The position numbers and the translations under genes were made by a program. A stretch of 59,533 nt of DNA from Rheinheimera sp. (GTDB lineage: Bacteria > Pseudomonadota > Gammaproteobacteria > Enterobacterales > Alteromonadaceae): the NCBI RefSeq assembly GCF_030824435.1, contig NZ_JAVBXS010000091.1, forward strand, positions 1 through 59,533, written 5' to 3'. Shown here in pieces: positions 13,847 through 16,204 of the stretch. Numbering within the stretch: position 1 is the stretch's first letter; the number at the start of each line of letters is the position of its first letter. Below the pieces are notes generated by a model. That model was not told where the DNA came from. It worked only from the letters and a program-made list of their open reading frames with translations, and made no database searches.

Positions 13847-14707
13847 TTAAGCAGCATCCACCATAGCGGCATGCAACTTTTTCATCGCATTTTTTTCCAG
13901 CTGACGTACCCGCTCAGCAGAAACCTGATAACGGTCAGCCAGCTCCTGTAATGTCAATTTCTGGTTATCCAGCCAGCGGGCGCGGATAATATCCTGACTC
14001 CGCTCGTCCAGAGTGCGGACCGCCGCTTGCAAACGATCAACTGCGGCACCTTCTGACTGATCTTCTTCATAGTTGTTGGCTAAGTCAGAAGATTTATCCT
14101 GGAGGTAAAATACCGGCGCATTAAAGTTGCTTTCGTCATCGTCGTCCTGAGCATCAAAAGGCATATCGTGATTGCTCATACGCGATTCCATTTCACGCAC
14201 TTCGTATTCTGGTACACCCAAAGACTCAGCCACGTTTTTCACTTCTTCCTGACTAAACCAGCCTAAGTTTTTCTTAGCTTTACGCAGGTTAAAAAACAGC
14301 TTGCGTTGTGCTTTGGTGGTGGCCACTTTCACGATGCGCCAGTTTTTTAACACAAATTCATGAATTTCAGCTTTGATCCAATGAACCGCAAAAGAAACCA
14401 AACGTACACCCACTGTAGGGTCAAAACGCTTGACCGCTTTCATCAGGCCAATATTGCCTTCCTGCACTAAATCACCAATAGGCAGACCATAACCTGAATA
14501 ACTGCGGGCTATATGCACGACAAATCGTAAATGCGACATAATTAACTGACGGGCGGCTTCTAAATCACCATGCTGCTGCAGGCGTTCGGCTAACGCGCGT
14601 TCTTCCTCGGCAGACAGCATCTGAATACTGCTGACCGCATGGGTATAAGCCTCCAGGCTTCCGCTACCAGCGACAGACAGTGTCATAAGTTGGGATGCTT
14701 TTGTCAT
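13847..14707 (-). CDS. rpoH: RNA polymerase heat-shock sigma factor RpoH (sigma-32)
   Basis: The 286-residue group-3 sigma factor has region 2 ([37 protein letters not shown]), the RpoH-specific box ([17 protein letters not shown]), and region 4 with [19 protein letters not shown] as the -35 recognition helix. It directs transcription of chaperone and protease genes after heat shock. AGGAGC precedes the start. A perfect CIRCE operator lies 36 bases upstream of the ATG, downstream of a sigma-70-like promoter, suggesting additional control by the HrcA repressor. It is separated from ftsX by an EAL-HDOD gene. Confidence 0.96.
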
Positions 14708-14743
14708 ATAAACAGCTCCTGCTCGGATTTAAGTGGAATCATC

Positions 14744-14770
14744 TTAGCACTCTTTGATTGAGAGTGCTAA
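14744..14770 (-). promoter_or_regulatory. CIRCE element (HrcA operator) upstream of rpoH
   Basis: The sequence is TTAGCACTC, 9 bases, GAGTGCTAA: an exact match to the CIRCE consensus with both 9-base arms perfect. HrcA binds CIRCE and represses until heat titrates it through GroEL. The site lies between the proposed rpoH promoter and its start codon, inside the expected 5' untranslated region. Confidence 0.9.
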
Positions 14771-14799
14771 ACGAAGTTCCATCATTTTAAGATCCGAAT

Positions 14800-14829
14800 C
14801 TTATAAAGGACCATTTTTCAGAATATCAA
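14800..14829 (-). promoter_or_regulatory. candidate sigma-70 promoter of rpoH
   Basis: Read on the minus strand there is a -35 hexamer TTGATA (14829-14824), an 18-base spacer, and a -10 hexamer TATAAG (14805-14800). Transcription would begin near 14793, placing the CIRCE element about 23-50 bases into the transcript. No good sigma-32 promoter was seen here. Confidence 0.5.
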
Positions 14830-14959: not shown

Positions 14960-16204
14960 ATGTATTGTTATATGGCACGTCAGCCGATTCTGGATAACAA
15001 CAAAAATTTATATGGTTACGAGTTGTTATTCCGGGACGGTGAAGCCAATGCTTTTCCCAATATCAACGATGACGAAGCCACTTCAAAACTCATCACTGAA
15101 CACCATCTTCTGATGGGGGTGGAAAAAATCACCGGTGGCCAGCTGGCATTTATTAATTTTTCCGCCGATACGCTGATCCATCACTTCCCGACTTCTATTA
15201 ACCCTAAAAGTATGGTGATTGAAATTCTGGAAACAGTGCCTATCAGCAGGGAATTACTGACAGCCTGCCGTGAACTGCACCGTATGGGGTATCAGCTGGC
15301 GCTGGACGACCATGATTTTGACCCCAAATGGGACATTTTCCTGCCTTATATCAGCATTATTAAAGTGGATGTACAGCAGTTTAATCTGCTGCAGATCAGC
15401 AAATACATCTCAAGGATAAAACACTACAACGTTGTGTTACTTGCAGAAAAAGTCGAAACCGCCGCCGAATTTAACAAACTACGCCAGCTGGGTTTTCATT
15501 TGTTTCAGGGTTATTTTTTTGCCCGTCCAGAAATGCTGAAACATAAAAAAATTGCCAGCAGCAAACTGAATCTGATGTTGTTAATTGCAGAAGCGAGCAA
15601 AGTTGAGCTGGATTTTGACCAGCTATCACAAATTGTTGAGCGGGATTTAGGTTTGTCTTACAAACTGCTGCGGTTTGTGAATAGTGCCAGTTTTGCCCGC
15701 GAAAAACCTATTGGTTCGTTAAAACACGCCATGGTGTATATGGGCGAAGCTGAGCTGAAAAAATTTATCGCTTTATTGGCTTTGGCCAACTTAAGTGAAA
15801 ACAACGGCAGTGAACTGTTAAATATGTCAGTGGTGCGCGCCAGATTTTGCGACCAGCTGGCAAACCTAAATCAGGATCCGGCGAATCCGCCAACAGCATT
15901 TTTAACAGGTTTATTTTCGCTGGTTGACGCTTTATTAGAGCAGCCGCTGGCCGAATTGCTGGATGACTTACCTATCTTACCGGAAATAAAAAATGCGTTA
16001 TTGCAGCACAGCGGCAGACTTGGCAAATATCTGGAACTGGCCAAAGCTTTTGAACAGGCCAACTGGGAAAAACAACAACAATTGACCAGGCAAGTTCTCA
16101 ACAAGGCCATAGATTTAAGTCCGGTTTATCTGGAAGCAGTGCAGTGGGCGCATGGCTTGATGTTAACGGCCAAAGACGAAGACAACAAAGAAGCAGTTAA
16201 ATAA
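14960..16204 (+). CDS. EAL-HDOD signalling protein
   Basis: The 414-residue cytoplasmic protein combines an N-terminal EAL-fold domain (about residues 1-200) with a C-terminal HDOD domain (about 205-400), the YuxH/CdgJ layout. Many EAL ligand positions survive (YELLFR, INFSADTL, EILE, IKVD, AEKVE, FQGYFF), but the DDFGTG loop reads DDHDFD, so phosphodiesterase activity is doubtful. Relatives affect motility through flagellar genes. AGGAG precedes the start. It lies in opposite orientation between rpoH and ftsX, which are often adjacent in related bacteria. It is divergent from rpoH, so its promoter region overlaps the CIRCE neighbourhood. Confidence 0.85.
   Translation: MYCYMARQPILDNNKNLYGYELLFRDGEANAFPNINDDEATSKLITEHHLLMGVEKITGGQLAFINFSADTLIHHFPTSINPKSMVIEILETVPISRELLTACRELHRMGYQLALDDHDFDPKWDIFLPYISIIKVDVQQFNLLQISKYISRIKHYNVVLLAEKVETAAEFNKLRQLGFHLFQGYFFARPEMLKHKKIASSKLNLMLLIAEASKVELDFDQLSQIVERDLGLSYKLLRFVNSASFAREKPIGSLKHAMVYMGEAELKKFIALLALANLSENNGSELLNMSVVRARFCDQLANLNQDPANPPTAFLTGLFSLVDALLEQPLAELLDDLPILPEIKNALLQHSGRLGKYLELAKAFEQANWEKQQQLTRQVLNKAIDLSPVYLEAVQWAHGLMLTAKDEDNKEAVK

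Follow-up and report, generated by a model that had tools for sequence, protein, structure and literature searches.

A CIRCE operator at rpoH in Rheinheimera and the predicted control of sigma-32 synthesis by HrcA, chiefly at a sigma-E-type promoter

The HrcA/CIRCE system and sigma-32 are generally treated either as alternative circuits or as circuits that overlap on groESL. A CIRCE element directly in front of rpoH, the gene for sigma-32, in a contig of Rheinheimera sp. raises the question of whether the HrcA repressor controls the synthesis of sigma-32 itself and, if so, which promoter it would act on. The site lies in the window (the whole stretch of DNA that was analyzed, 59,533 nucleotides) among the following features:

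13847 to 14707, minus strand: rpoH, encoding sigma-32 (286 amino acids), start codon at 14707-14705; the product is above the TIGR02392 cut-off (409.5 bits, cut-off 323.1) and contains Pfam sigma-70 regions 1.2, 2, and 4
14744 to 14770, minus strand: perfect CIRCE operator with 10-base arms and the spacer TCAATCAAA in the rpoH sense; arms invariant in 22/22 genomes of the genus
14960 to 16204, plus strand: divergent neighbor gene encoding EAL and HDOD domains

The sequence at 14744-14770 (TTAGCACTCTTTGATTGAGAGTGCTAA) is composed of TTAGCACTC-TTTGATTGA-GAGTGCTAA without a mismatch to CIRCE. A pattern scan of the window thereby confirmed what an earlier note on this DNA had claimed, two perfect 9-base arms separated by a 9-base spacer, and showed that the arms extend to 10 perfect pairs. 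The distance of 36 bases to the sigma-32 start codon given in that note is also correct (bases 14708-14743), the identity of rpoH being based on TIGR02392, and the element is contained in the 252-base intergenic region between rpoH and the HDOD/EAL gene. At up to three mismatches, neither the window (mean of 0.03 matches in shuffles) nor the 3,920,935-base (3.92 Mb) assembly contains any other CIRCE match. The reversed control pattern also matches the assembly once at three mismatches, and the evidential weight is therefore placed on the perfect match, for which the chance expectation is ∼6e-5 perfect 18-base matches under a uniform base composition.

The hrcA gene on which an HrcA reading of the site depends was found in the genome as two contig-end pieces, with PF01628 matching HMM positions 3-67 at one contig end and 65-215 at the other. 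Both pieces are ∼87% identical to the uninterrupted hrcA gene of a relative (G017) whose product passes the TIGR00331 cut-off (239.3, cut-off 197.2), and the neighboring genes, named by eye, are nadK and grpE. Because each piece stops where its contig stops, the two ends have 20 nt in common, and the frames, read separately, agree by eye, hrcA is read as an intact gene divided by an assembly break; an insertion or a frameshift within hrcA was rejected on the same grounds. The control genomes in which the HrcA profile matched do not include Escherichia coli.

The co-occurrence of the operator and the repressor was analyzed in 196 genomes of the order that were drawn as relatives, with hrcA called by a profile cut-off. 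A total of 45 genomes contain hrcA over the cut-off (a 46th match, in G060, is under the cut-off and that genome is without CIRCE). All 45 carry a CIRCE with at most two mismatches, each within ∼165 nt upstream of rpoH, whereas none of the other 151 genomes (hrcA not over the cut-off) has a CIRCE at rpoH by coordinates (Fisher 2e-45, phylogeny ignored); seven of the 151 are without an rpoH match at the threshold used. The CIRCE matches in five hrcA-negative relatives were rejected as chance, since all of them have two mismatches and lie away from rpoH; five other genomes of the order are matched by the reversed control pattern. In an alignment of the 22 genomes of the genus, the 10 bases of each arm never change although the flank is variable over much of its length, which is the opposite of a repeat lost from close relatives over a conserved flank, the pattern that the earlier note had named as counting against the site. 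The gene order nadK|hrcA-grpE, assigned by eye, is present in 12 out of 13 hrcA loci displayed (L101 differs), which suggests that hrcA was inherited vertically and lost repeatedly.

Two further observations concern individual loci. Very divergent HrcA proteins (PF01628 E 1e-7 to 1e-11) are encoded by three genomes of genus g19 (L095, L096, and L097) and by Pseudoalteromonas luteoviolacea (L109), the L095 protein scoring 118 bits with TIGR00331 (cut-off 197.2); all four genomes still carry a perfect CIRCE at rpoH, that is, the repressor has drifted and the operator has not. Tandem CIRCEs located 31-33 nt apart are found upstream of rpoH in more than one lineage, at L011, L047, L048-L051, and L055.

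Beyond the order, a genome scan with the RpoH of the window was used to list the best 80 rpoH loci, which do not constitute a random sample. A CIRCE-like site (at most three mismatches, within 400 nt upstream) is present at 33 of these best 80 loci, mostly from Gamma- and Betaproteobacteria and including P. luteoviolacea, Alcanivorax, Methylocaldum, Dyella, Pandoraea, and Trinickia. The hrcA gene was searched for in 50 of the 80 titled genomes, hand-picked among the Beta- and Gammaproteobacteria (the other 30 include 10 with the site), and CIRCE was found at rpoH in 21 out of 25 hrcA-positive but only in 2 out of 25 hrcA-negative genomes (Fisher p 7e-8, phylogeny again ignored). Both hrcA-negative exceptions are MAGs, and two of the 21 hrcA-positive sites are three-mismatch sites; the four hrcA-positive exceptions (L140, L149, L150, and L163, including Xanthomonas pisi) show no CIRCE in the 400 nt upstream of rpoH even when three mismatches are allowed. 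The presence of hrcA, the invariance of the site within the genus, and the co-occurrence of 45/45 versus 0/151 in the order, to which the titled genomes add 21/25 versus 2/25, make HrcA control of sigma-32 synthesis, the central prediction of the earlier note, a well-supported one on comparative grounds.

In a sample of the class, a CIRCE with at most one mismatch is present in 269 out of 369 genomes, and among 30 such loci that were fetched, 17 are located at groES, 11 at rpoH, and 2 at hrcA. By this measure, HrcA control of rpoH looks common in the class and not exceptional, so that the surprise voiced in the earlier note reflects E. coli. A 2003 survey of Beta- and Gammaproteobacteria by Permina and Gelfand may already contain some of these sites. 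A CIRCE upstream of rpoH was predicted from sequence in Geobacter sulfurreducens in 2004 (PMC545781); that site is likewise perfect and lies at -51, but CIRCE is also found there at groESL and at hrcA-grpE-dnaK-dnaJ, and the available portion of that paper describes groESL as the only constant member of the regulon and contains no mention of an overlap with sigma-E.

The Rheinheimera genome shares with the canonical HrcA/CIRCE regulon the operator consensus, the HrcA family, and the presumed logic of GroE titration (as far as described in the accessible part of PMC8533110). It differs in its targets. The canonical regulon consists of groESL, its constant member, and hrcA-grpE-dnaK, whereas no CIRCE-like site with up to five mismatches was found here in the 150-200 nt upstream of groES (200 nt), dnaK, grpE, or hrcA. 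The further sites at groESL, dnaK, and hrcA for which the earlier note proposed a search are thus not recognizable, and rpoH is the only recognizable target of HrcA in this genome. The same holds for the family, in which all 35 hrcA-positive genomes (eight genera) carry a CIRCE with at most two mismatches at rpoH only, with tandem copies in two. Because the chaperone operons are without a recognizable CIRCE, any influence of HrcA on the chaperones would have to pass through sigma-32, unless HrcA also recognizes an operator that is more degenerate. Sigma-32-like promoters, scored against a consensus, reach 11/14 at groES (CTTGGTT-14-CCCCATAT, p 0.11) and 12/14 at both dnaK and grpE (p 0.005 each). 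A sigma-32-like promoter on hrcA was found in 11 out of 19 relatives at p ≤ 0.05, making a closed negative loop plausible in those relatives; the hrcA gene of the Rheinheimera genome itself scores 9/14 (p 0.43) and for that reason no such loop is claimed here.

The second part of the question concerns the promoter that HrcA would block. Three elements upstream of rpoH are relevant:

14753 to 14757, minus strand: putative sigma-E -10 (TCAAA), inside the CIRCE spacer and 16 nt from the -35; TCAAA or TCGAA in 14/22 genomes of the genus
14774 to 14780, minus strand: putative sigma-E -35 (GGAACTT), 7/7 match, 3 nt upstream of CIRCE; exact in 7/22 genomes of the genus
14800 to 14829, minus strand: possible vegetative promoter TTGATA-18-TATAAG, weak; hexamers intact in 18/22 and 6/22 genomes of the genus, respectively

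A sigma-70-like promoter upstream of CIRCE, as proposed in the earlier note, can be read as TTGATA-18-TATAAG. Against it, the sequence is absent from a sigma-70 consensus scan, which listed one site in the region, on the opposite strand (shuffles mean 2.2), and TATAAG is kept in only six of the 22 genomes. A better match, which the note had overlooked, is the sigma-E-type promoter that overlaps CIRCE. Its sequence GGAACTT-16-TCAAA (14780-14753, minus strand) agrees at 10 out of 10 positions with the consensus pattern GGAACTT-N15..17-TCNNA and was equalled by none of 100 shuffles. The genome encodes rpoE (321.1 vs. 236.15 bits), upstream of which CGAACTT-16-TCATA was read by eye, a stricter scripted pattern giving no match there. 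The promoter gated by HrcA is, on these sequences, more likely of the sigma-E type than of the sigma-70 type.

The sigma-E-type motif is unevenly distributed in the genus. Besides the seven genomes with an exact -35, one retains 6 out of 7 bases and 14 retain 4-5 out of 7; the TC at the start of the -10 is present in 14 out of 22, and a perfect GGAACTT-16-TC[AG]AA is found in the window and six relatives. Outside the genus, g18 (L004 and L005) has TCAAA together with GAAACTT or GCAACTT, in the register of the window, and L007 (g43) has GAAACTA with TCAAA, while no match of at least 9/10 was found in the hrcA-positive loci L009 and L042-L047 (g19, g23, g37, and g49), the sequence upstream of the CIRCEs of L047 being hardly covered by the scan. 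These distributions support a sigma-E promoter in the clade of the window more than a genus-wide feature. A second sigma-E register in part of the genus (GGATCTT ... TTTTA) was rejected as no better than shuffles. Sigma-E binding at the rpoH promoter has been reported in the accessible parts of studies on Vibrio alginolyticus (PMC4890791) and Salmonella (PMC4577112). The window resembles E. coli and, as far as those partial texts describe them, Vibrio and Salmonella in having a sigma-E-type promoter in front of rpoH, but differs in that its promoter is overlaid by CIRCE, E. coli being without an HrcA profile match.

The association of the two elements extends across the class. The composite GGAACTT-N8..11-CIRCE is present in 49 out of 369 genomes of the class (gap 9 in 40, gap 10 in 7, and gap 8 in 2), and the wrong-gap control (gaps 12-22) gave 0/369. 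All 30 composites that were fetched from the 49 lie upstream of rpoH on the same strand. The -10 ends with spacer base 3, a position fixed by neither CIRCE nor the search pattern; this base is A in 46 out of 49 composites versus 1 out of 20 CIRCEs at groES. A test of the -35 alone was conducted on 42 rpoH loci with CIRCE (31 titled loci from the best 80 with at most two mismatches and 11 from the class sample; the three-mismatch loci L144 and L155 were left out). Here, 19 out of 29 near-matches to GGAACTT are located 16-17 nt upstream of CIRCE (offsets -16/-17), compared with 0 out of 3 in 20 groES loci, and 300 shuffles never gave more than three matches at two adjacent offsets. At these offsets, the sigma-E -10 begins with the TC that ends the left CIRCE arm. 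Full sigma-E scoring is biased near CIRCE because CIRCE itself supplies this TC; with that bias, 25 of the 42 loci score at least 9 (18 of these at the +7 register) and 17 score below 9. The -35-only, spacer-base-3, and wrong-gap tests are free of the bias, and the first and last of them replaced full scoring. In other loci, including loci of the order, the -10 begins 8-15 nt upstream of CIRCE. Since a repressor would cover the -10/start region of a sigma-E promoter in each of these different registers, these data suggest that the overlap itself has been selected. The gap of 3 nt in the window differs from the common gap of 9 nt, and the class-wide composite therefore supports the principle and not the exact placement in the window.

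A wider interpretation is modestly favored by these comparisons. Gamma- and Betaproteobacteria that keep HrcA would often transcribe rpoH from a promoter merged with its operator, the left CIRCE arm providing the first two bases of the -10. Such a composite would act as an AND gate, yielding sigma-32 only when two conditions coincide, the release of sigma-E by envelope stress and the removal of HrcA by cytosolic misfolding, and in the family of the window HrcA would have lost its chaperone targets and become a dedicated rpoH repressor. A single-target HrcA would be a clean system in which one operator mutation tests the whole circuit.

The strongest competing explanation is that HrcA represses rpoH at an ordinary vegetative promoter located further upstream, CIRCE being part of the leader and the sigma-E-like motif a functionless relic. 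This would match the classical layout, in which CIRCE lies between the start site and the ribosome site, and two stretches upstream of CIRCE, ATATT and TCTTAAAA (window 14785-14827, rpoH sense), are invariant in 22/22 genomes of the genus, including those in which GGAACTT is degraded. However, the vegetative hexamers match the consensus weakly and not all genomes of the genus keep them, and a relic explains neither the perfect sigma-E sites of the window and its six relatives nor the strict class-wide coupling of CIRCE to sigma-E, leaving the vegetative explanation a serious but unlikely one.

Much less probable is a role of the repeat at the RNA level, as a stem-loop in the leader of rpoH (for stability or as a thermosensor), in place of a DNA operator. 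The rpoH mRNA of E. coli is thermoregulated, and a 151-nt stretch in which the CIRCE arms pair as a stem has a better fold than its shuffles (z -2.07, 7/200 as good), but no Rfam family comes near threshold (one irrelevant weak match), and a transcript that starts at the sigma-E promoter would begin within CIRCE and lack the full stem. Matching changes in both arms of at least one relative (L164) fit a stem and a symmetric operator equally, whereas in the 22 genomes of the genus the arms are invariant and do not covary, and the presence of the site follows that of hrcA in the order (45/45 vs. 0/151). That the operator serves the divergent HDOD/EAL gene, with which rpoH shares the intergenic region, is very improbable, as CIRCE lies 36 nt from the start of rpoH versus 189 nt from that of the HDOD/EAL gene, and rpoH is the partner in 45/45 loci of the order and 30/30 composites of the class.

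The preferred reading, with a probability of roughly 0.8, is that CIRCE is an HrcA operator on rpoH that blocks chiefly sigma-E-driven transcription as long as GroE is not overloaded. At growth temperature, 14744-14770 would be occupied by a folded HrcA dimer, which would keep RNA polymerase off the rpoH promoter, in the main the sigma-E-type promoter (-10 in the CIRCE spacer, -35 just upstream), and would also slow polymerase arriving from promoters further upstream. Occupation of GroE by misfolded proteins, or inactivation of HrcA by heat, would release HrcA and allow rpoH to be transcribed; the rise in sigma-32 would switch on groESL, dnaK, and grpE via their sigma-32-like promoters, and newly made GroE would refold HrcA and close the loop. 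Stimulation of HrcA binding by GroE has been reported for Campylobacter and Bacillus (PMC8533110, accessible part). For Rheinheimera, HrcA binding, repression, the GroE signal, and the use of the sigma-E promoter are predictions, as is the joining of the GroE-HrcA step with sigma-E at one site.

If this circuit operates, HrcA/CIRCE and sigma-32 would be arranged in series with sigma-E on the same promoter, an integration point for three signals at which three stress systems may meet on ∼40 bases of DNA, and E. coli, being without HrcA, would be a special case and not the model. A literature search, with most subscription journals outside its reach, found no paper that joins HrcA, sigmaE, and rpoH or CIRCE with "rpoH promoter," and none on HrcA and rpoH in the Alteromonadales.

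The CIRCEs of the groES loci (L188-L214 and L058-L060) are placed differently relative to the promoter than those at rpoH. Near-matches to CTTGAAA (mostly CTTGACA by eye) begin 28 nt upstream of CIRCE in 8 out of 20 groES loci and TTATTA-like bases abut CIRCE; judged from these arrangements, the class of promoter with which CIRCE is associated may differ from one target gene to the next.
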